From positions 347,291-411,290 of the forward strand of contig JADWOT020000292.1 in assembly GCA_036345935.2 (NCBI GenBank): a stretch of DNA of 64,000 nucleotides, in the 5' to 3' direction. The translations under genes and the position numbers were made by a program. Positions 1 through 48,634 of this stretch are shown here, piece after piece; position 1 is the first letter of the stretch; every line of letters begins with the position of its first letter. The notes below the pieces were generated by a model that was given only the letters and a program-made list of their open reading frames with translations, was not told the origin of the DNA and ran no database searches. Source of the stretch: Taenia hydatigena. Its lineage: Eukaryota > Platyhelminthes > Cestoda > Cyclophyllidea > Taeniidae.

Positions 1-304
1 GATTTGCTCGACTTTTTCGTTTACTGAAGCCAATTGGGACGCATTACCAAAGCTAAACTATTCCACGAAATTTTAAGAGGCTGTCAAGCGTTCGTCAGGG
101 TGAGTGAGGAATGTTGCCAAAACTAGCTGAAACAGGGATAATGCTTTTTGGAGTACCAGTGGGGAGTAGCATAAATACTTGCTTTCAGCTTGTATCTGTC
201 TTAGTCTACCATTTACAATGCTCACTCAGATGCGTTAAAATAAGGAAGACTACCCACCATTCCGTGGCCGATAACTTCGTCGTGCCCATTCACTGTCATG
301 CTAC

Positions 305-376
<72 letters not shown>

Positions 377-1210
377 GACTAGCTTTGATGCGCGGTGGTC
401 TCAATCAAAATCCGCTCTGCAATGAAGAGAAATTTAATCATTTCACCACCAGGAGTAGTGGCCAATGCTGAAGTTGACTAGCCTTCATATGCATTCTGCC
501 GCAAGCATTGGTTGCACTAACTACCAAATATCTCCACGTACAAGTTCGACCCTTTTTAATTCCACTCTGCGAAGGCCCACACAGAGTGCTGGGGAAACGA
601 ATACTTCGGCAGTGGCTGCAACGCCACAGATGGTATAGCCGGCGTCGACAAGGCTTGAGTTGCTCACGATGACATGTGGTCCTTTCCTCCTTCCTTCCCC
701 GTTCCAAATGAAGTGGTCTTTGTTCAAACGGTTCCAACTCACAGTCTGACTACAAACCCGCATGAAAATTGCTACTGAATCTATCGTCAAAAGACAAATG
801 CTTCCTTAGTCATCGCACAAAGAAGGTTTGACCAAATTAATGGCTTGTGTGCGGATATAGACGCCCAGCTATGCCTGATCCAGTTAATCCCTATGGCACC
901 ACATGTCACGGTCGCCTGGTGGTCGAGTGTTAGTGGGAGTGCTTTCCTACATATGCAATTGTTGTTCAACTTTCAGCTGTATTTGATCACCTTTGCTATT
1001 GTCGAGCATTTTCATTGTTTGTGCTTTTGCACATGCATGTCTTGACAACCGCAAATTGCTTAACTCGGGCAGCATCAAAATGTTAGTTGCTTGCGAGGTT
1101 TGAAAGAAAATAAAGTGCTTGCTGCTGTTCTCTTGTTGGTGCTATCAGTTCCACCTGAGCAAAAGGTGACACATTTTAAAAGTTTAATCGCAAATGGATA
1201 TTCGGAGGTC
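1..1210. other. Outer arm segment, no gene recognised
   Basis: Outer segment of the left arm, mirrored at 47425-48634. Apart from the CTG array at 301-375 I see nothing coding; the open frames here are short and run through the triplet repeat or lack any recognisable family. An AATAAA hexamer occurs near 1110 but has no gene upstream of it. The third U copy, which starts at 56990, does not include this segment, so it belongs to the palindrome and not to U. Confidence 0.6.
301..375 (+). repeat. Interrupted CTG triplet array, left arm
   Basis: Twenty-five triplets: CTA, seven CTG, CTA, sixteen CTG. The mirror array in the right arm has the same total length but the inner CTA sits two triplets away. 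Poly-alanine and poly-serine open frames across the array are by-products of the repeat. Confidence 0.97.
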
Positions 1211-2248
1211 GATTAGGTAAACTCAGATGATCTGCAAATCGGAAGGATAATAGTTTTACCAGAGTGTTACCGTGGGTCCGCAGCGTGAGGAGTTGGAATG
1301 GCATGTGATTTGTTGCCTTTATAAAGATTGGTTGCCACGACATACACAAAAGAGGGCACCACGGTATCGAAGTCGTGGGTGAATCACCAAGGCATTGAAT
1401 CGAGGCCATGGAACTAACATCGTTTCATTCGCTTACAATGGAAGCATGAGTAAGTCAAATTCAGGACGGGAGGAGAGTGCTTAAACCGTCCGAAATATGG
1501 TTGGGTGCGTCTATATTATAGGCCATTCACATGGCCTATAGCCTGAGGGAAGCGTTGGGGCTATGGTGAATTGAGTCAAAAATCGTTGCATCTAGTTGGC
1601 TGTGCGAGTGGCAAATGCGGTGTGATAGGCATGTCCCTGCCAATCAGCGTATTTATGGCTAAGTAGTCCCAAGGTAAATTGGGATGCACTCAATTCCCGT
1701 GTATTGGTGGTGGTAGGGAAGGTGGGCGCAGATTGTGCGTCTCCCTCTTAATTGCATGCATTCCTATCAGGACAGGTGTCCGTGCGTTCCGTCGTACAAC
1801 AGCCTATGGTAGAGCGTGGGAAGCAGTGCCTAAGCCTACAAGTAGAATTGTGAGTGTTTAGTACTTGCTGCTATCCATTCCAAAGTGTTGTGTTGGGTGG
1901 ACGAGGGAGGGATGGGATAATATTGACCAAGAAGCACAGCATCGGTCAAGATGACAGGCTGCAATCGTTGCAAAAAGGCAAACGACGAACATGGATGTCA
2001 TTAAGAATTACAAATACACGGGGTTCGGGAGACGTTTATTGATGATGATGACATCATTCGAGAGGTGGGAGGGGTCTGTCGAAGCAGAGACGTTTGGAAT
2101 CTAGGAAATCGGCGGCATTCTGCTTTGGCAAACGCACCATTCCTGCGTTTGATTGATACATGAAACCGCACAATTGACGGTCCAACCTGCCTGGTTTCTA
2201 GAATGCAGAATGTGGAATCTCCGTGAAAACCTCATTCGTTCATCCAGT
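1211..2248 (+). repeat. Direct repeat B, first left-arm copy
   Basis: Aligns to 7984-9021 at a constant offset of 6773 bp. The first ~35 bp differ at several bases, the middle is almost identical, and the last ~120 bp and a site near 1946-1960 carry diagnostic differences. Homology ends abruptly after the sequence GTTCATCCAG at both copies. I find no TG...CA ends, poly(A) tail or open frame that would make B an LTR or a LINE. Confidence 0.93.
1517..1540. repeat. Short perfect hairpin inside B
   Basis: TATAGGCCAT, a 4-base loop, then ATGGCCTATA: a perfect 10-bp inverted repeat. It recurs at 8290-8313 and 47095-47118 in the other B copies. Function unknown. Confidence 0.9.
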
Positions 2249-2250
2249 GC

Positions 2251-2272
2251 CACATTTTAAGAGTTGAATCGC
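2251..2272 (+). repeat. 22-bp direct repeat flanking first B
   Basis: Matches 1170-1191 at 20 of 22 positions (CACATTTTAA core, then AATCGC). The two copies lie just outside the two ends of the first B. It could be a target-site duplication or the trace of an older junction. Confidence 0.7.
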
Positions 2273-2730
2273 TTTGCAGATAATTACTCAACACCACTTT
2301 TATTCATTAAGGCGCATCATGTTCTACAATTTCGTGGAAAGTTCGCTTAAATTTGAAGGCACCTGTGTTTGTTGATGCAGAGAGGGAGTTTTAGTGCTTA
2401 TATAAGGCGCTACCACAAAACTTTTGCGTGAATAGAGGCGATCCTAGTTCTACTAGATGCACACAGGAGGTTGTGCAAACTGCTGTTTTGTCTACTGGGA
2501 ATTCCTCGATCCTCCTTTCCTTGATCATGATCGCATTTACCTCCGTCCACAGATATTCCAGTCCAAAGTGCAAACGATCCCTCCATTATTGTGTACTGGA
2601 AGCGATTCAGTACGTCGTGGTGGTGCTTTCTGCTGTTGTGACATGCGATTGTCAAAGACTATTGACAAGCAAGCATTTTTTGCAGTTTTCTGGTGATACC
2701 AAAGACCGCATAATGTCTGCGCCAGCATAG

Positions 2731-2997
2731 GTACTGAGAAAGACGAATTACTTTGAGCGGAGGAAGAAGCAGAAAGCCAATAAGAATGAGGGACGAATCG
2801 AAGAGAATTACTCGAAGAAGAAAAATAATTTACACTGTGACTTGTTGGAATGGGATTTATTTGGTAGAGGAGAATGTTTTGTACAGTTGACTTAGAGGAT
2901 AAAAGAATGGAACTATTATAGAAAAGCAAGGGAAAGGCTCATTAAGGCGGGATTTAAGCTGAATAAGGTTCCAACGGAATGCATTACTCCTCAGTAT
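2731..2997 (+). pseudogene. Exon-like fragment with one in-frame stop, unidentified
   Basis: A plausible acceptor (AG at 2729-2730) is followed by a K/E-rich frame broken by a single TAG. It continues in the same frame (RIKEWNYYRKARERLIKAG and on) to a good donor, GTAAGC, at 2998. Its composition is protein-like, but I do not recognise a family. It lies just upstream of the fucosyltransferase relic on the same strand and could be its 5' exon, but nothing in the sequence proves that. Confidence 0.35.
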
Positions 2998-3091
2998 GTA
3001 AGCACCTTAGCTTGCCCTAAAGTCGACTAGTTTGTGTGAATTAAGAATTGGCATTGCTTTATTGATAAAGATAGATCTCTTCATCACATAC

Positions 3092-4039
3092 ATGGCCAAA
3101 TCCCCGGTGCCCTTTGTGTACTCCGTCTTCCTTCGCAACAAGAATCCGAAGCATCGATTTACCGCAAAAGAGGCTGAACTCATGCTATCCAAGAATTATT
3201 TGCATTTGCTGCCCCCTCATCATCGGAGAAGAAAGAAGCTGATCGCCTGGGCCATCTCTAATCTCCAATCCCATAATAACAGGATTGAGTATGCAAATGC
3301 AATCGCTAAATTCATCCCCGTAAGGTTATCATTTGATCTTAAATTCCTCATTTGCCAAAGTCATGTAGATAAAATCATAATTTAATGCTCTAAAAACTAG
3401 CACCTTCTTTCACAGCATTGGTCGTCAAAGCATGTTCAGCGTTTGATTTGACGCAGTTCATGCATTATCCTATTTGCTTCGGTCAGAAATATTAGGATGA
3501 AAACACAAAATAAGCCAGCGTTCTCTCATCTATATCGTAATATGCGACTTAATCTTGTGTTACTGTTCTCAAACCAATTGACGTCTACAAGTGTCACTTC
3601 TCTGCACCACTCAAACGGGCCTGTTGAAAGACTAACCTTGTTTCTATTGGTTCGTTCGTATGACCAATAAGTGGTAACATAAAAGGTATGTGTGCCTCCA
3701 TTGCACCTGTTTTCTAAATTCATAATCCAAGCTTACATTTAGAGTGTAAATCATTTTTACTGCCACCGTGTTATAGATATGCATAGCTGAAAAACTGGTT
3801 TAAAGGCAAATATAGGCAGCTTTCACTTTGAATAAAACGATTCAAACTCTACTTTGTAGGTGGATATATACGGTCGCAACGGAAGGCAGTTACCGCGAAA
3901 CTCCGAGGCATTTTATTTGCTATCGATGGACTACAAATTCTACCTCGCCTTTGAGAATTCCAACTGTCGCAATTACATTACAGAAAAGGTCTACTTTAAT
4001 GCGATGCAGTGCGTAACGATTGCTCTCGAATTCATTTGA
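3092..4039 (+). pseudogene. Alpha-1,3-fucosyltransferase (GT10) pseudogene fragment
   Basis: GT10 enzymes are Golgi type II membrane proteins that transfer fucose from GDP-fucose to N-acetylglucosamine-containing glycans. Three pieces in family order are visible on the plus strand. The first is an exon ending at a GTAAGG donor (3320) with RRRKKLIAWAISN, then R..Y...I.KFIP, the family's 'LVAW..SN...R..Y...L..I' block. The second, about 3577-3624, reads IDVYKCHFSAPLKRAC, like the family's VDVYG.CG segment. The third, 3905-4039, contains YKFYLAFENSNCRNYITEK, the nearly invariant GT10 donor-binding motif. The frame is then lost and a TGA follows at 4037. Exon spacing is kept, so this is a duplicated and not a processed copy. 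The N-terminal membrane anchor and the C-terminal end are missing, and the second piece lacks a clear acceptor. It is probably dead. Confidence 0.75.
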
Positions 4040-4822
4040 ACGGAATGTGGGCCTCACCATGAAGCAGCCAAACGCAGGCCTTAAAGTTGTTGCTTTGCAT
4101 GGGAGACTGCGTTGGTCTTTTACCACCCTTTTATTTTAAGATACGGATAAATATGCGTTCTGCATAGCTAAACAGGGAGTATCTATACAGAACAAAGCAA
4201 ATCAACATGGGTTACTGGTAGTTTCTACCCTAGAGTTAGTTATTCCGATGTGGCCATCGAGGAAGGCAAAATGCGTAGTATGACACGTGGTGCAAATGGT
4301 AGAGATCGCGTAGATTGAAGACTCGCGAACCCTCTGCTGAAGTCTGTGTGGACAAGAAGAGTAATCTGCAGCACACTTTACAACTGCTGCACACAGCACT
4401 TATCACACACCATGGGAGATGCAGCAAAGATGTTATTCAAATGAGGTTGGATGCGTGTTAAATTTTGCGAATGAGACTCGTGGTTATAGGAATATAAACA
4501 TAACAGGCACCTAGGAAATGGTCATAAGAAATTTGCAGAACGAATAAGAGACCTCTCGATTCACTGAAACGTCCTATGCCAGTAGACGCTTGCCTCTTCG
4601 CTGTTTAGCAATTGAACATGAAGGCTAAGTATTGGAGTGCATTCTGCAATGCTACGAGAATTCCCAACTTGAAAGGCGTTTCTCTTATATTTTGGGCCAA
4701 GACTTCTATTTTGCCAAAGCCAACTACTTTCTGACCTGTCGTATGCCAATAATAAATTCGTGAAGGAGATTAATTGCAAAACAACTAATCAAAGGGTTTT
4801 GGTGTTGAACAAAGACTCTATG

Positions 4823-4879
4823 TTAGCTGCGATCAAATTTTTCAAAAGGAACCTTCCCTCAACTTGCCGCAACAGGCAT
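4823..4879 (-). pseudogene. FARSB-like 5' stub in the left-arm extra block
   Basis: The minus strand reads from an ATG at 4879-4877 into the same beginning as the FARSB relic at 19556: MPVV, a premature stop and frame slip, then GRFLFEK. Homology to the other copies is lost around 4823. It is a truncated, non-functional fragment. Confidence 0.6.
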
Positions 4880-7800
4880 TGCCAAACACCTGGAAAGCAA
4901 TTCTACGGTACGCGTCCTCGTAAGCATACCGTCTTGGTGGCAGCGAAAATCAACGACGTGGAAAGTCGTAGCAAAGACTAGCTTCCATCACACACAGAAA
5001 TACGATTTCGATATTACTGACTCTCTATTTTAATGACAAAGCAGACACTTCAAGTCAGCAGGGAGGATAGCACTCATTGCCACCGAACTTGCATGACAAG
5101 CAGGCCACCCGGATGGATGAGAAGCAGTAATGCCAATTCGCACAAATACAAATGGTGGATAGCTCGCCATACTACACCAGTGAAGTAAAATGATAATCAG
5201 GCAGGCATTGAGACGACAACAGGCTCCAAGTTATCAACAAAGCAACTTGCTGCTAAGGCGGATGACTCAATACCAAGTGAGCGCATCAACACAGCCCAAT
5301 ATTTGGAAAGGGTAAGCTGGCAGAAGTAGTATCGACACTTATTTTGCAATACGACTGACATGGGGCTAATGCCGACAGCCAGAAAGTCTGAGCTACTCAA
5401 ACCCCATCAGATAACGCAATTTTAAAAGCAAACAATTGCAAGCAAACATCTAAATTAACAAAGCGAAGCGCCTACCAAATCTCAACCAACGAACAGCGCG
5501 CACATTCCGTAACAAGAAGCGCCTACAGTAGAGAAGGATGTGATCAGCATGTGGTGATGCTTCGATGAGTCTCACTATAATCTATTCATTAACAAAAGAG
5601 ATTTACTTATTTACGTGTCCAAAACCCTAATTGCTGTCTTGAAAAAGGGCTGTTACATTCGCATAATCCACAACTTTGCATGGCTTTAAAAATGATTTGT
5701 TGGTTTTATGTCAGAAAACAGTGCCATTTTAATATGCTGCTAACAGTTGCAATTCGTGGACAGTGCGTACATCATTAAAGAATTTTATTTCTGTCAGCTG
5801 TAATTGGTCACAGCTTCCGCGGTCTTTTGAAGCGCACATCCGCGTCTGCAGTCTGCAGTCTACAGTCTATTGTTGTCACTGCGACTTGTTTGGCCTCCGT
5901 GGAATTGCTCCTTAGGTACGCAAACTGTAATATTTACATTTCGGATGGGAACGAAGTGTCTGCAATGTTATCTGGTTCGAGTTTGTGATATGTCCGGTCC
6001 TGTGCGCAATTATTCTATGGGTGTTTCGCCTCGCATTTAATTCCCCTTTGCCTATTCGCCGTTTTAAGTCTTTGAAGCCTATTTGATCGCAAGACTTTGT
6101 TGGTCGAAATTGTTTGCCTTATTTCCTATATGTCTGCACCTTAGTTTATTATCAATGCACTTGCTTTTAGTGATTGCACTACATAAAATTGCTTCCATGT
6201 TCTTTGAACTGCAGAATGTTTGTATGCCTTTGTCTTTATTGTGAGGAGTCATGCGACGTCCTTTCAGTGGATTTCGTGTTGGTTCTTACGTGAACACTAC
6301 ATCCCGGCGATGATGGGAGCAGTTCTGTGCTATACTTTGGTCCGATTGACGCGTTCTTTTTATTAATGCCACAGAGCGGGCTTGTATTCAACGGCACATC
6401 TTCGCTCGTTACGTCGGTTTCTTTTTCCGCCTCATTGATAGGACCATTTATTCGCAGGACGGGCTTCGATTTCCGACGCCGAGAAATCTTATCGCTGCTG
6501 GTTCGTTTGGCACTTCGGAGTAGTAGTTTTTATTTTTGGCACACTAATGTGGAGGCTACAAAGTTTGAATCTAAAAGTCCACCTCTCGTACTCAGGAGCA
6601 TTCACGTTATCGAGGATATTTACTGCTTTCCGACCCTATCCGTCTTACTGTGCTTCGTAAACGAGTTACTAGTCTTTAGTAGCTTACGAGTTTCCTCCGT
6701 CGCTGTTGGGTTGTCTCGTGTTAATTCCTGCTTACCGTTTTAAACTCAACCCCTCCGTCGTGCAGTCAAAAATAGGATTTGAAGTTGCTATTGTATGCAC
6801 ATCCTCCTCCTTTTTCCAATCAATTGATTAAGGAGTAAAATGTGCAATTCGATTAATGCTTGTGCGCCTACTCCATCAGTGAGATGGAGTGTCTGCATTT
6901 TCGAGCAAATGCCGAATTTTCAAGTCGGTGGGAGCTTGTGCAGTCTGCGAAGGCTCGGAAGTTGCAAGGGTGCTCTTCTTCATTTCTTTTTTTGTGTTGC
7001 GTTTCTCGCGGGTAATGCTCACTAGCCTAGGCTTCTACTCCGTCTCTTTTTAAGCAGTTTAAAGTGTCGGTGTTGCGGAGCAGAGGGCAGATACCACGAC
7101 TTCATGTGGTTGCATTCAAATACTAAGCTTCGTTTTTGAAGTGCCATTGGTTTTCAGGCAAGTAATTATTGGTACTTTGGCGCAGTTATTTTGTCCACCA
7201 ACCCATCAACACCGAGGCTCACGGTAGAGTAGAAAGCCTTCTTTCGTAACGGAGTTGGCAGACCGCGTCTGAAATCTCGATATTTGAGTGTTCATAGTGA
7301 AAGTCCCCTTCAACGTTTTCACCCGAAGTATAGTTTCCTTTATGGAACTATTTGCAGCAAGATATGTCCGCGCACTCAGGCAAGGTAGTACATGCTTCGA
7401 AGTGGGGGTCACGCGACAGCACACAACGGTACGTTGGGACGTGAATTGACTCCACACGTATAGCAATGGCCTTACATTCGAGTCGAACCGGAGCTTACGA
7501 CTTGGCGGAAGAAGAGGCTAGCTTTTGAGGCGTGGAAATAGGATTGGTGCACTTATACACTTATCTCAACATCGTGTAGTCAATCCCCAGGGAGCTTCGG
7601 TATAGACTTTGTGCGGCTGAGCCACCCTAGGGTAGCTTGATTGAGAATGTCTTGGTGACACGAGCAGTAGATTGTTGGGATCGAAACCGCTCGTAAACGC
7701 CTTTGTTGTGCTCACCGTCTGCGTTGGAAGAATTGCGGCATTCTGCGCCGTTGATAGGTACAGGGCTCCTGCTGGCAGGGATCGCAGCTGTATTGTGAAC

Positions 7801-7978
7801 GGAGGGTCACCGAAATCAAGATCTTCACCGATATCCATCCAAACGTCTGGGAGGATGTTTCATTCATTGCATGAACGTTCGGACTGCTTATTTTGATTGG
7901 GTTGGATTTGGTCATTGGGTCAACCCACTTGTGGCATGTGGGCCGACCCTTGCTAGTTGCAAAAGGCCGAACTTGGGA
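4823..7978 (-). repeat. Inverted partial copy of unit U
   Basis: Homologous to 16.6-19.6 kb of the left arm in reverse orientation, and so co-linear with 35.8-38.7 kb of the right arm. It is visibly diverged. Around 7430-7640 it has ~180 bp absent from both arms but shared with the third U copy as far as the window end allows comparison. It is thus closer to the third copy than to the arms. The homology stops at the start of the second B on one side and inside the FARSB-like first exon on the other. Confidence 0.9.
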
Positions 7979-7983
7979 GATTT

Positions 7984-9021
7984 GATTAAGTAAACCCAGA
8001 CAGTCCACAAATTGGAAGGATAATAGTTTTACCAGAGTGTTACCGTAGGTCCGCAGCGTGAGGAGTTGGAATGGCATGTGATTTGTTGCCTTTATAAAGA
8101 TTGGTTGCCACGACATACACAAAAGAGGGCACCACGGTATCGAAGTCGTGGGTGAATCACCAAGGCATTGAATCGAGGCCATGGAACTAACATCGTTTCA
8201 TTCGCTTACAATGGAAGCATGAGTAAGTCAAATTCAGGACGGGAGGAGAGTGCTTAAACCGTCCGAAATATGGTTGGGTGCGTCTATATTATAGGCCATT
8301 CACATGGCCTATAGCCTGAGGGAAGCGTTGGGGCTATGGTGAATTGAGTCAAAAATCGTTGCATCTAGTTGGCTGTGCGAGTGGCAAATGCGGTGTGATA
8401 GGCATGTCCCTGCCAATCAGCGTATTTATGGCTAAGTAGTCCCAAGGTAAATTGGGATGCACTCAATTCCCGTGTATTGGTGGTGGTAGGGAAGGTGGGC
8501 GCAGATTGTGCGTCTCCCTCTTAATTGCATGCATTCCTATCAGGACAGGTGTCCGTGCGTTCCGTCGTACAACAGCCTATGGTAGAGCGTGGGAAGCAGT
8601 GCCTAAGCCTACAAGTAGAATTGTGAGTGTTTAGTACTTGCTGCTATCCATTCCAAAGTGTTGTGTTGGGTGGACGAGGGAGGGATGGGATAATATTGAC
8701 CAAGAAGCACAGCATCGGTCAAGATGACAGGGTGTAATCCGTGCAAAAAGGCAAACGACGAACATGGATGTCATTAAGAATTACAAATACACGGGGTTCG
8801 GGAGACGTTTATTGATGATGATGACATCATTCGAGAGGTGGGAGGGGTCTGTCGAAGCAGAGACGTTTGGAATCTAGGAAATCGGCGGCATTCTGCTTTG
8901 GCAAACGCACCATTCCTGCGTTTGGTTGATACATGAAACCGCACAATTGACAGTCCAACCAGCCTGGATTCTAAAATGCAGAATGTGGAATCTCCGTGAA
9001 AACCTCATTCGTTCATCCAGT
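7984..9021 (+). repeat. Direct repeat B, second left-arm copy
   Basis: Second copy of B, directly upstream of the unit U that starts near 9043. Diagnostic bases: GTAGG near 8047 where the first copy has GTGGG, and several changes between about 8719 and 8970. The right arm matches this copy at the inner sites but the first copy at the outer sites. Confidence 0.93.
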
Positions 9022-9549
9022 TATTCGTTCCTTCCTGTCTCGCCGTCAACCGAAAGCTGCTATTATGTCTAAATCCAACTACATTGGAAGGTAGGTTTTG
9101 CAGATAGCCATACTAAGGCTCTGATCCTCTCCTTTCACCCGAATTGGTATCTTTACTGCCATTTACTATCCTGCAGAAGCACTCAATGATGTCCTCACCA
9201 CTAGTGAGGTTAATCTTACCTCGCACGGAACCTACCACAAGCATTTAATCCCCGCACCTCATGCGATCTGCGATTTATGGAGCGATTGTGCAGGTGAGAC
9301 AGTAGGTTGTAAATGTTATGAAGCCAAACTGTTTCGCAACATTAGCACTTCAAACAGAGGCGATCTACAAAAAGCGCAAAATAAGCGAAGAGGAAGTAGG
9401 CAAAACGAGGTTCTGAGCAATGATGAATGCTCTATTGTAATGGCTAAAAGTGCTCATATTCCGTGCCACCAGTTCTCCTTATTATATCCTCAACAATTTT
9501 CGGCCCAGTTTGACTCCTTGTACGATTTGTGCCTGTCTGCTACACGGGG

Positions 9550-9747
9550 TTACAAAGTTGGTTCACAGACAGTGAGATCTTCTAGGACAACTTTTTTTAT
9601 CCATGGGAGGGGCAGAGCAGCACAGCACACTCGCTTGAAAATGTAATACGAAGACTTGAATTCGGTAGTGAAGCCTTTAAATTTGCGCGCAGTGCATTCA
9701 GAAATAGCCTTGTTCACCAAAAGTTCTGCCAACACCAGCATATTATG
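9550..9747 (-). pseudogene. Exon-like fragment with strong acceptor, unidentified
   Basis: On the minus strand a pyrimidine-rich tract ending in TTTTTACAG precedes an open frame (HNMLVLAELLVNKAI..., later SSYYIFKRVC) that runs to a TAA at 9550. A GTGAGT donor lies ~50 bp upstream on the same strand, near 9800, after DTLRFGDALPMLLS in another frame. Mirrored at 45661-45858. The third U copy carries the same pieces, but with deletions near 57595-57640. I do not recognise the protein. It could be the last exon of a lost gene or chance. Confidence 0.25.
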
Positions 9748-11164
9748 CTGTAAAAATGGAGGTTAGTGGCGTAAGGCAAGTGACCAGCCCACTCACCGGC
9801 ACTCAAGGCGGCAGACAGCAGCATTGGTAGTGCGTCACCAAAGCGGAGGGTGTCTGATCTCGTAAAAAGCCACAACACTGGTATTTCATCTCCTTGTTAG
9901 CCATAGCCTGATGTTTGTGCGAGAGGGCTTGTGTCCTGTCCAGCTTCCCACTAGGGTTGGTAGTCATCAAACCGGACCGCAATGCAGGTGGCTTTGTTAG
10001 CCGTCGGCTGAGCAAGCGAGGGAGCACCATGTTCGTGTTCACCGTGAACAGCTGGCTACCCGGCTGAGAGTGCTGCACACCAGACGAGACATGTTTCTAC
10101 TTGCACGTGGTCATAGTATTTGATGCAACTTGGTTTTGTGCTGTGTCAGTGAGCGTAAAGTGAGTGTCATCAGCCAACCAGGAGGAGTTGGAGGGAGAGT
10201 GCAATGCTAGAGAAGTGGCTGCGAAAGCCAAGAGCCCTCCCACTGTCCCAACTACGTACATCATGTCCTCGACCTCGACCACTCGCGGTGAAAAGCAGAA
10301 AGACCGTCGGTGGAAACTCAATTCGATTTTCAGACAGTCAATAAAGTGCTTTTCATCTTGCCATTTTTTTAATACTTAGCTCTAACAGCTACCTCTACAA
10401 TAGCATGAGAACAAGGCGCTTTCTCCTCAGCCTTTCATCTCCTCCCCCTCGCCCTCCCAACAAGCGTGCTCATCTGCCCACGACATTGTATAGCATTGAG
10501 GACTTCTGCTAGAAACAAACTGCGAGCATAATAGTTCTCCAACTCACAGAACTTAAATTCAATTACTTAAGGCTGAACCATCACTTGCGCGATAATCAGC
10601 GACGATTTCATGATTTCAAGCACACACAAACCAACAGTTCTTCTCTCACTACCAAAACACCTAGTTTCATCAAGTGCTGAACTTGTCTAGACTCAGATCC
10701 ACTGATAGTAGTCTGTGAGGAAATACGGTTAAAGTGAGCTTGACAAATCAGTTCATGAGTTAAGTCAGTCAGGTAATGCGCCCCAATGTAGTAAGATCTT
10801 CGGCAGGTGTGAATTCGCCTTATCTACCAAGCATTGGTTCCATTTGTGCTCTCATCGTAATCAACCAAACCCAACACGGAGGTGGGTAAGAACAGGTTTT
10901 GAGGTGAAACTGAGCGGATGCCAGTACCATGAGTGTATAACCTTCTACGACAGTTTGGACGCATCCTTGTCTCTTTGAAACTACAGGATGAGCGGCTCCT
11001 TTTACCTTCATAACGTCACCTCACAGAGTGATGACGTTGATGTTTGCGAGGACACACGCCACCTCAAAATGACCCACTCAGCCCCTCAATACCTCCCCTC
11101 AACCTTAGAACTTATGCTCAATCAGGCTTTGACAACTTCTACTTCATGACAATAGATGAAAAGG

Positions 11165-11350
11165 AGAATACAAAACCAAGCACAATTGACAGTTTCCATC
11201 TTCCTCATACGCCTTCAATCTGGCCATTTATCCACATCTTTCACTTTAGGAGGGTAGGTCTTGACACAGCAGAATACAAAACCAAGCACAATTGGCAGTT
11301 TCCATCTTCCTCATATGCCTTCAGTCTGGCCATTTATCCACATCTTTCAC
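11165..11350 (+). repeat. 80-bp tandem duplication
   Basis: 11165-11244 and 11271-11350 match at about 76 of 80 positions with a 106-bp period (mirror 44058-44243). They lie within the arm-specific 1.0-kb segment. Confidence 0.92.
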
Positions 11351-11632
11351 CAGCAGTTGAGCTCATGGCGCGATCCAAGAAATCGGACCACAAACAATCC
11401 TCTACAGGTGTGTACAGACCCTTCGGCAAACATTGGCATCCAGCACACCGCAATCCCACGAGCCACCTTTCTGCGTACTGCTCCTCGAGTAGGGATGTTA
11501 GCGTCCCCAACCCCCTTTCACACGCAGCAGATAAACCAGCCTCGTCCAGTTCTTTCCATGCAATCCGTTGTTTAGCATGTGCGCATTCGTCCAACGTCGC
11601 CTTGTTCCGAGCTCTGAGCATGGATGAAACAG

Positions 11633-11798
11633 CCTACAATTCTGTGATGAAGACGTGGTTGGTGGGAGCGGTCGATACATGCACAAAATACGGACTCTAC
11701 TGAATCCCGATGAGATTGAATCGTCATTCTTTACTCCAAAGCACGACTCCTTGTTCATGGATGAACCTCTATGGTTCGTTGTGTCTATCGCCTTCTAA
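11633..11798 (+). pseudogene. Possible terminal exon with poly(A) signal, unidentified
   Basis: After an AAACAG acceptor-like site the frame reads LQFCDEDVVGG, then MHKIRTLLNPDEIESSFF and HDSLFMDEPLWFVV, to a TAA at 11796. An AATAAA hexamer follows at 11819. The composition is protein-like and the arrangement is that of a 3' exon, but I do not know the family and no upstream exon is convincing. Mirrored at 43610-43775. Confidence 0.22.
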
Positions 11799-34509: not shown

Positions 34510-34611
34510 CACTTTTCTAAAACCAGTGAGTGAGAATCCAGAGGTACTCTGCCGTAGATTCAACGTCTTATAGAACCTTCATTGGTTAAAAGTAAGGAGC
34601 TTTCGACGTCC
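34510..34611 (+). repeat. Dispersed repeat, second-half copy
   Basis: Direct copy of 29461-29580, lacking ~22 bp after TAGATTCAA. Confidence 0.85.
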
Positions 34612-38800: not shown

Positions 38801-41800
38801 AACGCGGGGCTGGGAATTGTGAGGTCGGACAATTTCCGCAACTGACTGGTTAGTGAATCCTTGCTTTCCATGCTGCCCTGAAGGTCTGATCACACCAGAG
38901 GAAATGCTTTGCTCTTAGTAGAGCCCTACTGACGGCATGTAGCAAGCCCTTTCATGTTCTTGTGCTGGGCTTAAGGGGTGGCCACAGCGATGTATCGGGA
39001 GAGGAGCATCGTTTTCGATAGAGCAGTTTAACTGTTATCTTACCTTCTCAGCGCACACATGAGAGGGAATATTTTCTCTGTTATTTTAGAAGACTGGTGC
39101 AACATTTTCTAGGCAGCAACACTGATTGTCTACGCCTACTTCATGGTGGCTCCGCTTCCATGGCAACACCATAATCAGCGTGGATCTCCACGTGCCGATT
39201 TCGGGTCTACTTGGTATCCTCTTCCATATGAGTTGGCTCAAGGTAAGTGAGAGTTCTAGCACATGTGGGAGACCTGTGAGACTGGGAGGAGGGGTAGTCT
39301 GAATGCGACTGTATACTGTCGGTGTGTTTGTCGAAGTGAAGCATAAAATCACCTACGCACGATCGCTCTCAATTGCTTCTACTTTGGTCTAGATCGCGGA
39401 GACGCTTGTCAGTCCATTGGGTGAAGATGAGGACGACTTCGAAATTGAGGAGTGCGTTGAATGCACTGCCCAGATGACTAGTTGGTTTGGTCCAACACTC
39501 ACCGCTTTGACATTTCGAGTCTAGAACATCTGCGGCACGGACTTGAACTGTCCTCGAGTAATTCATCTCTACTTGACCTTCACTTAACTTTTTATTTGTA
39601 GGTAGGCGTGTGTGGGTTATAAGTCCTTTTTCACAATGCCAATTATCGTCGTGCGCTCTTGCACACAGGTGGTACCACTGTGGCCTGCCATTTGGAATAA
39701 CGGTGTATGGATGAGTTCACAACACCTGTTCGGCTAGTTTTCACGGGCAAATATCTTGGCCACTCCTTTATCCCTTAATGGGAAATGAAAAAGTCTCGAT
39801 GCAAGGTGGATGCTTCTCTCATTGGCATTATTTGTTGTGCTGAAACTATCATCACTTTACTTTGCTTCAGTTGACGGAATTCTGCGACCGCGCATGCAAA
39901 GATGTGATGTCACGAGTTGTGCCAAATGCCAAATAGTGGGACGCGGAGGACATCAATCCGTCCGGTTGGGTGTCAGTAGTGGAGGGCAGTGGAACTCGAC
40001 AACGCAGCATCTTCTGTGCCAGTGAGGATTTCCTTTCCTGGTTCTTTTGCCGAATGTCGTAAAGTGTCTATCTTTGTCCATTAATCGTCTTGCGTTTCCC
40101 CTCACTCGCCGCATCGCCAGTTTTTTCGGTTTCTATCCCCGTTTGGTGGCCATGACTGTGCCGTTAGGGTAGGGCTGTGTGGAGCTGCATGATTTAAGCC
40201 AGAACTGTGGAGTGGATCACCAAAGTACCTTTCTTATGTACTGATACGGGAAGATGAGTTGTTTATATTCTCGCGTTTTGAAAGTGCCGTCGAATTGAGC
40301 AACCGATGGGCTTGAGGATGTGCTATCTGCACACGAGACCAATCTTGAGCGAGGGTCAAGTTAAGTTCATCCAAATGGTAAATAGTTGGCATTGTGTTGC
40401 CGGTCAGGCTTGAAATGGGTGGTTGGGTAGGCGGGATCTGCTTCACACAAATAAGGTGGTCTAATCACCATCACTGCAGAAGTGATTGTGCAAGTGTAGT
40501 GACCGAGGAATTGCATTCTCTGTCTCGATACTTCCCTTGACTGGCAGGACGTGCATATTCAACTCACAAGGCGATGGAGGCTATTGGCGTGGTCTGGGAG
40601 TGGCTCACTCGGTAAAGGCGCAATGGCGGATGTCCATAGGTAGTTCTACTGTCGAAATCTCATGGCGTTGTGCTTGGCGCTCCTCTCCTATCAACGTTCC
40701 GCCTTAGCCATCACAACGAAGGCAGGGCTGTAAGGGAGCACCTACGAGTCAACCATGCTAGTCATCAAGTTCCTGTGCTTCCAAGGAGACATTTGGCTGC
40801 AAGGGCACTGCTTCCACTTGGCAATGGAGCTGGATTTGGGGCTTCGTCCTGTATGGGAAAAGGCTTTGGGGAGGGAGAAGTGTGCTCGCTAGTTGTAGGG
40901 ACACTGACTCAAGAGGAGGGTCGTGCGGCAGAGGACGGGATGTAGCATAGTTCTGTGGAGATAGGGTTCTGCCTCCATTACTCTTCGGCACATTTTTCAC
41001 TTCAGAGCTGCCTAGTAATTATGTCTGCGTGGTTTCTATCGCATTAGTGAGGAAGCGGAGGTGGTATTGCGGGTTCACTTAATTGACATTGTTATGCAGG
41101 TGTTTGTGAGAGTGATTGTGACGAAGCTTTTCTGGACGGGGTGGTGGTCGAAGGTGGGTGTCAATTTCTTTTGCTCCACTAGGTTTTAGCACTCAGCAGT
41201 AGACATCAGGATAGATGCCTTCTGAGGTGGGATGGCTTTTCGCCGTCAGTGATGCGACGTGCCGCGACTACCCTGAAGGCGGAGGAGAGGCGTTGTGCTT
41301 GGGCATAGTGTGCATATTCGAGGTAGAGTAGTGCTTGGGACAAATGATACATCCCAGGTGCAGGGATCCTCGGTGGACCCGTTGTCTTGACCAAGGGTTA
41401 AGCAGCTATAGCGTTCCAATGCTTCCCCAAAGATGAATGCTTGACATCAACCCACCTCTGAAATGATTAAACTTCTGCGGGATGAAGTTGCATGCTGCAT
41501 ATCCGAAATCGGCTGTGATAGTTTGGGTGTGTGTGGGAAGCTGAGCAGTATCCTCCGCGAGTGGGTGTAAACACTTGGTTCCTTTTGGTCCAAAGAGACG
41601 CCGCGGCTGCGGTCAGCGACCTCGCTCCACCTGCTAGAAGGCGCGACAAGGCGGTACCGGGTGTGCAGTAGAAACGCTTTACCTTAGGCCTTACGCCGAC
41701 CGCTTCAACAGCCGTGTTTTGGTGATTCCAAGGTCTCGACCTTGTCTCCTGGCTAGGATTGAATTTCATACAGTTGTTAATTTAAGTTGCAGATTGAAAC

Positions 41801-44800
41801 GTCCACTCGTTTGCGATCTCGGCCTTGGGACGACTTTGTTTAGAAGGTAGGGAGCAATAAATAAAGCAGTCAAATTAAAGAGTAGTCTGAGCAGCTTGCT
41901 GCGTCTACGTTGTCTCAAAACCAAGGTCCCACTACTGTCGGTGGGTGTGTGAAGTTGTTGCTCCAAAGTAGGGATAGGCTTTCTGGACGAAGACTCTCTG
42001 CCAAGCAAAAGGTGACTGGTGAATTAAAAGTGTGGACAAAGCTAGACAAGAGTGGCAATGTGCACATGTCGCTGGGCGCACAATATAGGCTTTTAGATCA
42101 TGTGCACGGGTTCGCTGCACTCATCTGTTAGAACACACAGTCTATGCGTTCCAGCAACAAAGTGCTTACTCTTTGTGAATCTATACCACGTTCTGAAATG
42201 CGTCTTTTAGGGAGCATTCCTTTAGTCAGTTGTTACCTCTGCCTGTTTTCAGAAGAACTGCCGTGCTGGTCATCTCGACACGGTGCCCGCAATTGTCCAA
42301 GTAAGGCTGCCACGTATCGAATCCAAAAATTATGGCTGAGTTTCCAAATTTACTGGAAGTAAGGCATCAAGGCGACAATTTTTGCTGAAATAGTTCCACT
42401 TCTGCTTCCATTTTCTTCTTTCTGTGCATCACTGCTCTCTCGCCCACTTTGTCTCCCTTCACCAGTGGCGTTAGGTGTTGTACCATCCTCTTCGAGCAGG
42501 ATTCCTCTAGAGTACTTGGACCGGGTACTTGTACCACCTTGGCGTGCAGCGTTGGTGATGTTGTCAACTCCAGCATCAGCATTTTCAAATGGGGCCTGAA
42601 TCTGCTCCGTCTGAAGCATTCGCTGCCAGACGTTCTCGCAGAACTCCGCCACGTCTCAACAACTCCAATTACCACCTCTTCAACTCCAGCTGACCTCGTC
42701 ATGCCCACGCACCACACTGTTCAACTCCCCACCGTGTATTCGCCTTCATGACTTCCATGGAGAAAATGACACCCCTGAGAGGATAAAGGGCTTTACTTGG
42801 GCAATCATGGAGAGTGCACAGGTAGAAGCGTCCTGCCATCAACCTGCTGTTGACTAAATGAACTGCTTTCTGACTAGGCTTGTATGCGCCTCAAGAGGAG
42901 CGTGTTTTAGCTACAAACCGGCTTGTGAAATGCACACGTGAGCATGACGATGCTAAAACTTCATTTTAGGTTGCGCAGACGATAAATGCCTGGATTGGCG
43001 AACTGGACCAAATAGCTCCCCTCTAACAAGACAACCAATCATCTACGACGCTCGAACCAAAGCAACTAGTAGTTGTGCAGTCATTCACTTAATTGACTCC
43101 ATCCCGTTCGCAGGTGCTCTGCGTAGACTGACGGGAGCAAATTGACGCTACTTGGTCATTTGCACTGACTGCGAGAACCGTCACCAAGGCCTCATCGTCA
43201 GACCATTCTAACATGCATTTATCGGTGTCTGATTACTTTGATTTTGATTAAGTGGAAGAGGGCACTTCATTTCTATGATCTGATAGCATAACACAGTGTG
43301 TGATGTTCTTCTTCTTCTTCACCATCATCAAGATGATAGTCATGACCACCACCGCCAATGAATTGACGTCTCTGCCCCCAATGCGAGACCGAATGATTCC
43401 CGCCAAAGCAATTCTCACTAGAACGGCTCACTTATTTAAGGCATGCCATCACCTCAAAGTCAATTTCACCACAGTGACATTCCGCAGACGTGCTTACTCA
43501 CAACGCGTATATGCGAAAACGTGAGTGGGTGAGTGGACCCAGAACCCGGCACCCGACTTCTTCGGTTGCAAGGCAGGTAAACATTTATTTGCAATGAAGG
43601 AAATTACACTTAGAAGGCGATAGACACAACGAACCATAGAGGTTCATCCATGAACAAGGAGTCGTGCTTTGGAGTAAAGAATGACGATTCAATCTCATCG
43701 GGATTCAGTAGAGTCCGTATTTTGTGCATGTATCGACCGCTCCCACCAACCACGTCTTCATCACAGAATTGTAGGCTGTTTCATCCATGCTCAGAGCTCG
43801 GAACAAGGCGACGTTGGACGAATGCGCACATGCTAAACAACGGATTGCATGGAAAGAACTGGACGAGGCTGGTTTATCTGCTGCGTGTGAAAGGGGGTTG
43901 GGGACGCTAACATCCCTACTCGAGGAGCAGTACGCAGAAAGGTGGCTCGTGGGATTGCGGTGTGCTGGATGCCAATGTTTGCCGAAGGGTCTGTACACAC
44001 CTGTAGAGGATTGTTTGTGGTCCGATTTCTTGGATCGCGCCATGAGCTCAACTGCTGGTGAAAGATGTGGATAAATGGCCAGACTGAAGGCATATGAGGA
44101 AGATGGAAACTGCCAATTGTGCTTGGTTTTGTATTCTGCTGTGTCAAGACCTACCCTCCTAAAGTGAAAGATGTGGATAAATGGCCAGATTGAAGGCGTA
44201 TGAGGAAGATGGAAACTGTCAATTGTGCTTGGTTTTGTATTCTCCTTTTCATCTATTGTCATGAAGTAGAAGTTGTCAAAGCCTGATTGAGCATAAGTTC
44301 TAAGGTTGAGGGGAGGTATTGAGGGGCTGAGTGGGTCATTTTGAGGTGGCGTGTGTCCTCGCAAACATCAACGTCATCACTCTGTGAGGTGACGTTATGA
44401 AGGTAAAAGGAGCCGCTCATCCTGTAGTTTCAAAGAGACAAGGATGCGTCCAAACTGTCGTAGAAGGTTATACACTCATGGTACTGGCATCCGCTCAGTT
44501 TCACCTCAAAACCTGTTCTTACCCACCTCCGTGTTGGGTTTGGTTGATTACGATGAGAGCACAAATGGAACCAATGCTTGGTAGATAAGGCGAATTCACA
44601 CCTGCCGAAGATCTTACTACATTAGGGCGCATTACCTGACTGACTTAACCCATGAACTGCTCTGTCAAGCTCACTTCAACCGTATTTCCTCACAGACTAC
44701 TATCAGTGGATCTGAGTCTAGACAAGTTCAGCACTTAATCAAAATAGGCGTTTTGGTAGTGAGAGAAGAACTGTTGGTTTGTGTGTGCTTGAAATCATGA

Positions 44801-46365
44801 AATCGTCGCTGATTATCGCGCAAGTGATGGTTCAGCCTTAAGTAATTGAATTTAAGTTCTGTGAGTTGGAGAACTATTATGCTCGCAGTTTGTTTCTAGC
44901 AGAAGTCCTCAATGCTATACAATGTCGTGGGCAGATGAGCACGCTTGTTGGGAGGGCGAGGGGGAGGAGATGAAAGGCTGAGGAGAAAGCGCCTTGTTCT
45001 CATGCTATTGTAGAGGTAGCTGTTAGAGCTAAGTATTAAAAAAATGGCAAGATGAAAAGCACTTTATTGACTGTCTGAAAATCGAATTGAGTTTCCACCG
45101 ACGGTCTTTCTGCTTTTCACCGCGAGTGGTCGAGGTCGAGGACATGATGTACGTAGTTGGGACAGTGGGAGGGCTCTTGGCTTTCGCAGCCACTTCTCTA
45201 GCATTGCACTCTCCCTCCAACTCCTCCTGGTTGGCTGATGACACTCACTTTACGCTCACTGACACAGCACAAAACCAAGTTGCATCAAATACTATGACCA
45301 CGTGCAAGTAGAAACATGTCTCGTCTGGTGTGCAGCACTCTCAGCCGGGCAGCCAGCTGTTCACGGTGAACACGAACATGGTGCTCTCTCGCTTGCTCAG
45401 CCGACGGCTAACAAAGCCACCTGCATTGCGGTCCGGTTTGATGACTACCAACCCTAGTGGGAAGCTGGACAGGACACAAGCCCTCTCGCACAAACATCAG
45501 GCTATGGCTAACAAGGAGATGAAATACCAGTGTTGTGGCTTTTTACGAGATCAGACACCCTCCGCTTTGGTGACGCACTACCAATGCTGCTGTCTGCCGC
45601 CTTGAGTGCCGGTGAGTGGGCTGGTCACTTGCCTTACGCCACTAACCTCCATTTTTACAGCATAATATGCTGGTGTTGGCAGAACTTTTGGTGAACAAGG
45701 CTATTTCTGAATGCACTGCGCGCAAATTTAAAGGCTTCACTACCGAATTCAAGTCTTCGTATTACATTTTCAAGCGAGTGTGCTGTGCTGCTCTGCCCCT
45801 CCCATGGATAAAAAAAGTTGTCCTAGAAGATCTCACTGTCTGTGAACCAACTTTGTAACCCCGTGTAGCAGACAGGCACAAATCGTACAAGGAGTCAAAC
45901 TGGGCCGAAAATTGTTGAGGATATAATAAGGAGAACTGGTGGCACGGAATATGAGCACTTTTAGCCATTACAATAGAGCATTCATCATTGCTCAGAACCT
46001 CGTTTTGCCTACTTCCTCTTCGCTTATTTTGCGCTTTTTGTAGATCGCCTCTGTTTGAAGTGCTAATGTTGCGAAACAGTTTGGCTTCATAACATTTACA
46101 ACCTACTGTCTCACCTGCACAATCGCTCCATAAATCGCAGATCGCATGAGGTGCGGGGATTAAATGCTTGTGGTAGGTTCCGTGCGAGGTAAGATTAACC
46201 TCACTAGTGGTGAGGACATCATTGAGTGCTTCTGCAGGATAGTAAATGGCAGTAAAGATACCAATTCGGGTGAAAGGAGAGGATCAGAGCCTTAGTATGG
46301 CTATCTGCAAAACCTACCTTCCAATGTAGTTGGATTTAGACATAATAGCAGCTTTCGGTTGACGG
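35743..46365 (-). repeat. Unit U, right-arm copy
   Basis: Mirror of 9043-19665. All left-copy features recur on the opposite strand at 55408 minus their coordinate. Confidence 0.93.
39113..39457 (+). pseudogene. Bestrophin-like pseudogene fragment, right arm
   Basis: Mirror of 15951-16295: exon 39113-39242, intron with a GTAAGT donor, second exon from 39393. It carries the same 14-bp deletion as the left arm, so the loss predates the inverted duplication or has been shared since by conversion. Confidence 0.82.
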
Positions 46366-46386
46366 CGAGACAGGAAGGAACGAATA

Positions 46387-47424
46387 ACTGAATGAACGAA
46401 TGAGGTTTTCACGGAGATTCCACATTCTGCATTTTAGAATCCAGGCTGGTTGGACTGTCAATTGTGCGGTTTCATGTATCAACCAAACGCAGGAATGGTG
46501 CGTTTGCCAAAGCAGAATGCCGCCGATTTCCTAGATTCCAAACGTCTCTGCTTCGACAGACCCCTCCCACCTCTCGAATGATGTCATCATCATCAATAAA
46601 CGTCTCCCGAACCCCGTGTATTTGTAATTCTTAATGACATCCATGTTCGTCGTTTGCCTTTTTGCACGGATTACACCCTGTCATCTTGACCGATGCTGTG
46701 CTTCTTGGTCAATATTATCCCATCCCTCCCTCGTCCACCCAACACAACACTTTGGAATGGATAGCAGCAAGTACTAAACACTCACAATTCTACTTGTAGG
46801 CTTAGGCACTGCTTCCCACGCTCTACCATAGGCTGTTGTACGACGGAACGCACGGACACCTGTCCTGATAGGAATGCATGCAATTAAGAGGGAGACGCAC
46901 AATCTGCGCCCACCTTCCCTACCACCACCAATACACGGGAATTGAGTGCATCCCAATTTACCTTGGGACTACTTAGCCATAAATACGCTGATTGGCAGGG
47001 ACATGCCTATCACACCGCATTTGCCACTCGCACAGCCAACTAGATGCAACGATTTTTGACTCAATTCACCATAGCCCCAACGCTTCCCTCAGGCTATAGG
47101 CCATGTGAATGGCCTATAATATAGACGCACCCAACCATATTTCGGACGGTTTAAGCACTCTCCTCCCGTCCTGAATTTGACTTACTCATGCTTCCATTGT
47201 AAGCGAATGAAACGATGTTAGTTCCATGGCCTCGATTCAATGCCTTGGTGATTCACCCACGACTTCGATACCGTGGTGCCCTCTTTTGTGTATGTCGTGG
47301 CAACCAATCTTTATAAAGGCAACAAATCACATGCCATTCCAACTCCTCACGCTGCGGACCCACGGTAACACTCTGGTAAAACTATTATCCTTCCGATTTG
47401 CAGATCATCTGAGTTTACCTAATC
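46387..47424 (-). repeat. Right-arm B, chimeric copy
   Basis: The only B in the right arm. Read on the minus strand, its start (outer side, through the GTGGG site) matches the first left-arm B. From the site paired with about 1946 onward it matches the second left-arm B, including the changes near its 3' end. The switch lies in the intervening identical stretch. It therefore looks like a recombinant of the two left copies. Confidence 0.9.
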
Positions 47425-48258
47425 GACCTCCGAATATCCATTTGCGATTAAACTTTTAAAATGTGTCACCTTTTGCTCAGGTGGAACTGATAGCACCAAC
47501 AAGAGAACAGCAGCAAGCACTTTATTTTCTTTCAAACCTCGCAAGCAACTAACATTTTGATGCTGCCCGAGTTAAGCAATTTGCGGTTGTCAAGACATGC
47601 ATGTGCAAAAGCACAAACAATGAAAATGCTCGACAATAGCAAAGGTGATCAAATACAGCTGAAAGTTGAACAACAATTGCATATGTAGGAAAGCACTCCC
47701 ACTAACACTCGACCACCAGGCGACCGTGACATGTGGTGCCATAGGGATTAACTGGATCAGGCATAGCTGGGCGTCTATATCCGCACACAAGCCATTAATT
47801 TGGTCAAACCTTCTTTGTGCGATGACTAAGGAAGCATTTGTCTTTTGACGATAGATTCAGTAGCAATTTTCATGCGGGTTTGTAGTCAGACTGTGAGTTG
47901 GAACCGTTTGAACAAAGACCACTTCATTTGGAACGGGGAAGGAAGGAGGAAAGGACCACATGTCATCGTGAGCAACTCAAGCCTTGTCGACGCCGGCTAT
48001 ACCATCTGTGGCGTTGCAGCCACTGCCGAAGTATTCGTTTCCCCAGCACTCTGTGTGGGCCTTCGCAGAGTGGAATTAAAAAGGGTCGAACTTGTACGTG
48101 GAGATATTTGGTAGTTAGTGCAACCAATGCTTGCGGCAGAATGCATATGAAGGCTAGTCAACTTCAGCATTGGCCACTACTCCTGGTGGTGAAATGATTA
48201 AATTTCTCTTCATTGCAGAGCGGATTTTGATTGAGACCACCGCGCATCAAAGCTAGTC

Positions 48259-48259
<1 letters not shown>

Positions 48260-48334
<75 letters not shown>
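48260..48334 (-). repeat. Interrupted CTG triplet array, right arm
   Basis: On the minus strand this reads CTA, nine CTG, CTA, fourteen CTG: twenty-five triplets, as in the left arm, with the internal CTA shifted by two units. Confidence 0.97.
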
Positions 48335-48634
48335 CATGACAGTGAATGGGCACGACGAAGTTATCGGCCACGGAATGGTGGGTAGTCTTCCTTATTTTAA
48401 CGCATCTGAGTGAGCATTGTAAATGGTAGACTAAGACAGATACAAGCTGAAAGCAAGTATTTATGCTACTCCCCACTGGTACTCCAAAAAGCATTATCCC
48501 TGTTTCAGCTAGTTTTGGCAACATTCCTCACTCACCCTGACGAACGCTTGACAGCCTCTTAAAATTTCGTGGAATAGTTTAGCTTTGGTAATGCGTCCCA
48601 ATTGGCTTCAGTAAACGAAAAAGTCGAGCAAATC

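Follow-up and report, generated by a model that had tools for sequence, protein, structure and literature searches.

A near-identical inverted repeat in tapeworm-like DNA raises the question of how its two arms came to be so alike. A sequence-only reading of the 64,000-nucleotide stretch analysed here (the window) had offered three answers: the arms are very young, they are kept alike by arm-to-arm gene conversion, or they were created by assembly. The DNA is tapeworm-like as judged by the protein homologues of its galactosyltransferase (GT31) and fucosyltransferase genes, and the inverted repeat is present in the sequence as such. The pattern of its mismatches favours conversion-type homogenization of an old pair.

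Extent of the Inverted Repeat

Two arms, each with an inner copy of a repeated segment U, flank a spacer.

1–2248 (+): left arm, outer part (X), an inverted match to 46387–48634
7984–19769 (+): left arm, inner part, with U1 (about 9040–19612), a match to 35639–47424
19770–35638 (unstranded): spacer, 15,869 bp of DNA between the two arms
35639–48634 (−): right arm, without the extra block and with U2 (about 35796–46368), an inverted match to the left arm

When each base is taken once, and the left-arm partner is switched inside a direct repeat designated x, the right arm (35639–48634) differs from its partner at 51 of 12,996 aligned bases (99.6% identity) with no small indel, bearing out the near-identical inverted arms and roughly 16-kb spacer first proposed. 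The match is made up of two inverted pairings: left 7984–19769 with right 35639–47424 (58 mismatches in 11,786 bases, 0 gaps), and left 1–2248 with right 46387–48634 (99.5% identity; 12 mismatches in 2,248 bases, 0 gaps). Since left 1211–2248 and 7984–9021 are direct repeats of each other, a 1,038-bp stretch of the right arm takes part in both pairings. At 12,996 bp (right) and 12,996 + 6,773 = 19,769 bp (left), the arms are close to the 12.9 and 19.7 kb originally estimated, but such values are minima. Base 48634 mirrors the first base of the window, which makes 13.0 kb a minimum arm length; the window cuts off the outer end of the palindrome, and homology may extend past base 1. The inner borders had been placed at 19665/19666 and 35742/35743, where mismatches do turn dense, but homology runs 104 bp further, to 19769/35639.

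Past 19769/35639 the spacer ends showed no homology to each other (best E 0.63). The sole match in a Pfam scan of the spacer (E 0.01) was a diverged bestrophin fragment at 34835–34951 (−), with a sub-cut-off score of 17.1 bits, and Rfam (gathering scores) and ARAGORN scans of the whole window gave 0 matches each.

Distribution of Mismatches

Differences between the arms, initially described as scattered, are strongly clustered. Reading inward along the left arm, we counted 9 mismatches in 64 bp (7984–8047), 3 in 2,611 bp (8048–10658), 9 in 126 bp (10659–10784) and 2 in 7,346 bp (10785–18130), with 0 of these last within 12369–18130. The next 876 bp hold 4, and the inner end has 12 in 387 bp (19007–19393), 0 in 238 bp (19394–19631) and 19 in 138 bp (19632–19769). 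The cluster at 7984–8047 is due to the copy A/copy B pattern of x described below. The longest mismatch-free run, 5,762 bp, was reached by 0 of 10,000 random placements (maximum 2,416 bp), and the observed clustering variance by 0 of 5,000. Divergence is 0–0.1% across most of the arm, as against 3% at 19007–19393 and 14% at 19632–19769, where the 14% figure begins at a mismatch picked post hoc and the rim is only 138–157 bp long. In the part of the rim outside U (19613–19769), 19 of 157 bp are mismatched (12%).

19007–19769 (unstranded): diverged inner edge of the left arm, from mismatch counts against the right arm

Given this clustering, the inner edge of the arm pair appears old, and the remainder recently homogenized. 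At 27 sites the change could be polarized with U3 or U4, two further copies of U, and was assigned to the left arm 14 times and to the right arm 13 times; both arms have therefore changed within the unhomogenized patches. Interior differences at 10021–10784 and 12272–12368 comprise 13 sites, and at 9 of the 11 that are polarizable the left arm has the U3 base. AT-to-GC changes outnumber GC-to-AT changes by 16 to 9, a bias that is not significant (p = 0.23). GC content is 47.2% in the arms, 45.5% in the spacer, 43.3% in the right flank and 48.5% in U3, outside the palindrome. The shift of a CTG interruption between the arms (327/333), also pointed out in the sequence-only reading, is real.

Diverged Copies of U

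Four copies of U, in mixed orientation, are clustered within the window: U1 and U2 in the arms, and two elsewhere.

4824–7976 (−): U4, a partial, diverged, inverted copy of U inside the extra block, from alignment to U1/U2
56992–64000 (+): U3, a diverged U copy that lies outside the palindrome and is truncated where the window stops, from alignment to the arms

As expected from the earlier description of a third and a partial U, both are clearly diverged. U4 is about 90% identical to 17030–19612 and 35796–38378, falling to about 79% in its outer 363 columns; the aligned pieces of U3 are 83–93% identical to the arms, with an additional 415 bp at 97% to the extra block. U3 and U4 are 97% alike at 63586–64000/7562–7976, where the arms are only about 79% like U4, so the other copies too have had exchange or are closer kin. 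The rim at 19613–19769 lies outside the U4 match, so U1 and U2 share one duplication spanning X, U and rim. X lies within both arms and outside the match to U3.

The 6.8-kb Extra Block

1211–2248 (unstranded): direct repeat x, copy A, 1,038 bp
7984–9021 (unstranded): direct repeat x, copy B, 1,038 bp
2249–9021 (unstranded): extra block, 6,773 bp, consisting of 2249–7983 and x copy B; in the left arm only, missing from the right

The two copies of x differ at 18 positions: 9 lie within the first 64 bp and 9 within the last 290, with none in the 684 bp between. In a three-way comparison, the single x of the right arm equals copy A at 9/9 outer sites and copy B at 9/9 inner sites; at one further site, 2244, it is unlike both. 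This order, A outside and B inside with a single switch, has a chance probability of 1 in 48,620. A homologous crossover leaves this kind of footprint, and the simplest such event is a deletion of the block from the right arm. The 6.8-kb difference had been held to argue against simple duplication of one contig. The difference is real and carries a recombination footprint, but collapse of the arm interior during assembly keeps some probability, as weighed below.

Gene Content

Arm gene content was judged by Pfam-domain scans, and a six-frame scan of 1–23102 (E 0.01) matched bestrophin and GT10 only.

17959–18195 (−): bestrophin (PF01062) relic exon in U1 with two internal stops; Pfam 6.6e-05, 22.6 bits, below the curated cut-off of 24.2
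15935–16024 (−): second bestrophin fragment in U1; Pfam 0.0014, 18.3 bits, below cut-off
63015–63170 and about 62849 (−): bestrophin exons in U3; PF01062 1e-07, 31.8 bits, above cut-off, and a motif
3056–3328 (+): fucosyltransferase (GT10) exon in the extra block; 77% to Taenia asiatica P0059 over 91 residues
3860–4027 (+): second fucosyltransferase exon in the block; 86% to P0059 over 56 residues
2057–2212 (−): terminal fucosyltransferase exon in x copy A; 67% to residues 351–402 of 402 of P0063
8830–8985 (−) and 46423–46578 (+): the same terminal exon in x copy B and in the right arm
49592–52036 (+): galactosyltransferase (GT31) gene in the right flank, with coding stretches at about 49592–50044 and 51080–52036

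The U1 bestrophin exon matched bestrophin-1 structures weakly (best E 0.018), and a protein search with it gave 981 candidates, 0 of them at E 0.001. The same two stops occur in U1, U2 and U4, the three copies read; selection on bestrophin is therefore unlikely as the reason for arm identity. Literature matches for bestrophin and tapeworms, judged by title, deal with other matters. The second fucosyltransferase exon is supported by PF00852 at 9.3e-16 on 3800–4040; a DUF7193 match there (E 0.0066, below its cut-off) was regarded as chance. In all three copies of the terminal exon, the fifth matched residue is a stop. For the GT31 gene, PF01762 matched the second stretch at 4.1e-21 and tapeworm homologues span both. 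A pattern search for relatives of this gene returned 13 stretches in genome contigs and 1 in viral contigs, with 0 confirmed.

Origin of Arm Identity

We lean, at somewhat better than even confidence, towards an old inverted segmental duplication whose arms were recently homogenized by arm-to-arm repair, followed by loss of the block from the right arm. The duplication would belong, in a tapeworm-like genome, to the group of four clustered U copies seen here, which carry bestrophin relics beside fucosyltransferase exons. Homologous repair between the arms would have made them alike, whether through gene conversion or through one long tract of break-induced copying. The tract or tracts would have spanned at least window base 1 to about 18.1–19.0 kb and halted short of the inner edge, leaving an older rim, 3–14% diverged, at the spacer. 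Later, the right arm most likely lost the 6.8-kb block through a crossover between the two 1-kb direct repeats. The structure, the mismatch clustering, the rim, the single switch in x and the shared stops are direct observations, whereas conversion as the cause, the direction of the block change, the sequence of events and the reality of both arms in the animal are inferred. Of the three answers offered at the outset, conversion is thus favoured by the contrast between the 14% and 3% rim and the 0–0.1% interior; the "very young" option is not preferred, and assembly collapse retains a modest share of probability. Clustering and an old rim fit conversion, but a seeded young duplication or an assembly collapse yields a similar pattern.

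A truly young duplication is an unlikely but serious competitor. Here, a broken U would invade an older inverted U where the inner edge is diverged, and break-induced replication would then copy outward, so that the arms are new and the seed region alone is old. Such a single copying event predicts almost the same mismatches as those observed; near-identity of the arms extends from about 18.1 kb outward across U and X as far as the edge of the window, and X is in the arms yet outside the U3 match. Two papers, in their available parts, describe how inverted duplications can form by fold-back or break-induced mechanisms (PMC3907307, PMC10622511). What speaks against a fresh copy is the interior patch at 10659–10784, whose 9 mismatches in 126 bp would be unexpected without later exchange.

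We assign a similarly low probability to an assembly artefact, in which an assembler merged two real but more diverged arms, or two haplotypes, and used one consensus in both places, recovering their differences only close to unique sequence. The mismatch-free middle is about the farthest point from unique sequence, and the paired arms lack any small indel. Long reads from whole-genome-amplified DNA are also on record as containing artificial palindromes (PMC6218980, in the portion accessible), but chimeras of this sort would not be expected to place diverged rims and a 15.9-kb spacer between arms. The junctions of the two arms with the spacer are unlike at 19 of their final 138 bases, which disfavours a single locus simply written twice. 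The artefact must also contend with a 6.8-kb block difference that has a one-switch recombination pattern and with the 13 interior sites at which the left arm tends to the U3 base (9/11), and an N-free 64 kb spanning such a repeat suggests that long reads were used.

We think it very improbable that the palindrome acts as a recombination engine in a hermaphrodite without sex chromosomes, with continual conversion, spacer flips and fucosyltransferase exons in and beside the arms shuffled and lost by x–x crossover; if true, this would diversify sugar-modifying enzymes that face the host. A giant, Polinton-like mobile element, its terminal inverted repeats 13 kb long and its cargo 16 kb, to which the inverted arms around a spacer and the several U copies in one window might point, is less credible still: homology fades at the inner edge rather than ending sharply, and a six-frame Pfam scan of 1–36302 and 48601–63999 (E 0.01) detected no transposase, integrase or polymerase domains.

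Tapeworms are hermaphrodite as a rule. The sex-chromosome amplicon likeness suggested by the sequence-only reading, with arms kept alike to protect germ-line genes, has therefore scarcely any probability in tapeworm-like DNA in whose arms the scans found a bestrophin relic and a single terminal exon of a fucosyltransferase, with no intact multicopy germline genes among the Pfam-domain matches (six-frame, 1–23102, E 0.01), although its shape is that of mammalian and willow palindromes as presented in the consulted parts of PMC8981503 and PMC7023750.

If the arms are real in the animal, long-range arm-to-arm homogenization of palindromes, a process known chiefly from work on sex chromosomes, would also occur around an apparently dead gene in a probably hermaphrodite flatworm, and arm identity could be a side effect of repair between inverted repeats, with no selection on the arm genes. 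This type of locus is also a place where tapeworm genome assemblies may go wrong.

Relation to Known Systems

The structure is of a known type, in an animal group where it has been little studied. Like inverted segmental duplications (low-copy repeats), it has diverged mixed-orientation copies with high-identity patches, and a segment lost or gained when direct repeats recombined. Its host, a tapeworm-like genome, sets it apart from described segmental duplications with conversion. Sex linkage, which mammalian X/Y palindromes have, is improbable here in a hermaphrodite. Those palindromes likewise consist of large inverted arms with identity above 99%, separated by a spacer of different sequence (PMC8981503, in part), and show structural variation by ectopic recombination (PMC6790999, in part); unlike them, this locus has a bestrophin relic, a still diverged inner edge and a non-significant GC bias. 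Interlocus conversion occurs in human segmental duplications, according to the accessible text of PMC3790853.

Among the matches listed from the open-licence literature, mostly non-tapeworm, none described a large palindrome from the nuclear genome of a tapeworm. In the available text of the E. canadensis genome paper, "palindrom-" is used for CpG islands alone (PMC5327563). Ectopic conversion in tapeworm genomes has been tested for in small retroelements (ta-TRIM) of five taeniids, with tracts in one species only, Taenia solium (four examples); these elements differ in being small, and the part of the paper at hand does not mention a large inverted repeat (PMC4558846). That conversion was seen in just one of five taeniids (same source and extent) counts against a conversion reading.

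The available sections of a paper on glycosyltransferase expansion, in which palindromes are not mentioned (PMC4265353), bear on the genes of this locus. The fucosyltransferases reported there as expanded are nearest to the alpha-1,6 kind, in Spirometra, whereas those found here are GT10 (PF00852). The family of the flanking galactosyltransferase is reported in the same sections as expanded in tapeworms.

Organization of the inverted repeat

Self-comparison of the window confirmed the large inverted repeat proposed in the sequence-only reading. The inner part pairs 7984-19769 on the left with 35639-47424 on the right (58 mismatches in 11,786 bases, no gaps), and the outer part pairs 1-2248, designated X, with 46387-48634 (12 mismatches in 2,248 bases, no gaps). 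Within the right arm these pairings overlap by 1,038 bp; with the overlap counted once, 51 of 12,996 bases differ between the arms. The left arm equals the right arm in length plus a 6,773-bp block. Both lengths are lower bounds, since the last base of the right arm pairs with window base 1 itself and the outer end is out of view. A repeated unit, U, of ~10.6 kb is present in four copies in the window, two of them (U3 and U4) incomplete.

Spacer and copies of U
19770-35638, spacer, 15,869 bp
9040-19612, U1
35796-46368, U2, inverted
56992-64000, U3, third copy, cut by the window end
4824-7976, U4, partial and inverted, inside the block

The feature is probably real and instructive, not exotic: an old inverted segmental duplication whose arms were recently homogenized and which later underwent a homologous deletion. 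Both arms carry a CTG/CAG triplet array of ~25.7 units (299-375 and 48260-48336), with an interruption shifted by two units between them. The spacer contains a 111-bp inverted repeat (29350-29460 and 31749-31859, 96% alike) with a weaker third copy at 34512-34611, possibly a short interspersed element.

Recombination at the 6.8-kb block

A repeat of 1,038 bp, x, flanks the block on both sides in direct orientation (A, 1211-2248; B, 7984-9021), and the right arm has a single x. Between A and B there are 18 differences: the first 64 bp hold 9, the middle 684 none and the last 290 the other 9. At the outer 9 of these sites the right-arm x matches A, and at the inner 9 it matches B; the single switch falls within the identical stretch, and one further site is unlike both. 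This is the pattern that an A-B crossover removing the block would produce or, in reverse, an insertion by the same route. Deletion and insertion are equally compatible with it; we favor deletion as the simpler course, given the old copy of U inside the block. As both sides of the block are nearly identical between the arms, the change most likely came after the last homogenization. Short similar sequences in direct orientation, noticed by eye, lie on either side of copy A (1169-1201 and 2248-2283).

Uneven divergence between the arms

Mismatches in the inner part, 58 in all, are distributed very unevenly, and no mismatch-free run as long as that at 12369-18130 arose in 10,000 random placements.

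Mismatches between the arms (left-arm positions)
7984-8047: 9
2,611 bp after 8047: 3
10659-10784: 9
7,346 bp after 10784: 2 (0 in 12369-18130)
18131-19006: 4
19007-19393: 12
19394-19631: 0
19632-19769: 19

At 27 sites U3 or U4 served as an outgroup that polarized the change, assigning 14 changes to the left arm and 13 to the right. In 10021-10784, 9 of 11 sites retain the U3 base in the left arm; in 18131-19393, 12 of 16 retain the U4 base in the right arm; and U3 has a third base at interior sites 12272 and 12368. Because changes polarize to both arms, the patches look like longer histories in both, the remainder having been made alike recently. GC bias of the changes was not significant. The inner edge of the arms outside U, or rim (19613-19769), has 19 mismatches in 157 bases and is absent from the U4 match; U1 and U2 thus seem to derive from a single larger inverted duplication that included X, U and the rim.

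From this mismatch pattern we infer homogenization by repair copying. After a break, the two close inverted copies of U would pair and repair would copy one onto the other, with repeated or long tracts holding the bulk of the arms alike. The rim, which adjoins unlike spacer ends, would lie where tracts end and so retain its age. In shape and identity the repeat matches palindromes under gene conversion (PMC8981503), and among small retroelements of taeniids ectopic conversion is described in one species of the five studied (PMC4558846). The proposed likeness to sex-chromosome amplicons, which are marked by sex linkage and intact germline genes, is unsupported: the Pfam scans found no intact germline gene in the arms. 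No report of such a palindrome in a tapeworm nuclear genome appeared among the papers listed, but many of these were off the subject, so the evidence that none exists is weak.

One event of break-induced copying, started at the old rim, would produce an almost identical mismatch pattern, although the interior patch at 10659-10784 argues mildly against it. An assembly artefact, also raised in the sequence-only reading, we consider unlikely; it survives chiefly as a collapse of the arm middles onto one consensus, which would likewise yield a mismatch-free interior. Its simplest form, one locus laid down twice, is disfavored by the two unlike junctions and by the recombination pattern at the block.

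Gene content

In six-frame Pfam scans covering 1-36302 and 48601-63999, with 36303-48600 represented by its copy in the left arm, the only matches at E 0.01 were to bestrophin, GT10 and GT31.

Glycosyltransferase sequences
49592-52036, right flank, GT31 galactosyltransferase gene (PF01762, 4.1e-21)
3056-4027, + strand, fucosyltransferase middle exons, in the block
2057-2212 and 8830-8985, - strand, left arm, and 46423-46578, right arm, fucosyltransferase terminal exon, one per x copy

The middle exons are 77% and 86% identical to a Taenia asiatica protein; the terminal-exon match in each x spans 52 residues at 67%, and its fifth residue is a stop in every one of the three copies. Middle and terminal exons lie on opposite strands of the left arm, indicating that the family has been rearranged at this locus, and their presence in the block and x implies that the block change altered gene content too. 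The GT31 gene has two coding stretches without internal stops and 57 homologues at E 0.001, the best-scoring 61% identical across 76% of the query. Among homologues with a named source, those scoring highest (P0002, P0005-P0009; 54-58%) come from Mesocestoides, Echinococcus and Hydatigera, with Taenia and Hymenolepis next. Together with the two middle exons in the left arm, this right-flank gene places the host among the cyclophyllidean tapeworms or close to them. Glycosyltransferase families, GT31 among them, are described as expanded in tapeworms (PMC4265353).

U holds bestrophin exons (PF01062), scoring 31.8 bits in U3, above the 24.2 cut-off, and below it in U1 (17959-18195, 22.6 bits; 15935-16024, 18.3 bits). 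An additional diverged fragment in the spacer (34835-34951, 17.1 bits) also falls below the cut-off. Two stops interrupt the exon at 17959-18195, at positions common to U1, U2 and U4, so that the gene had probably died by the time these copies formed; alternatively, conversion spread the stops among them. U3 and U4 are 97% alike at 63586-64000 and 7562-7976, where the arms are ~79% like U4, which suggests that these outer copies exchanged sequence separately or share a kinship of their own.
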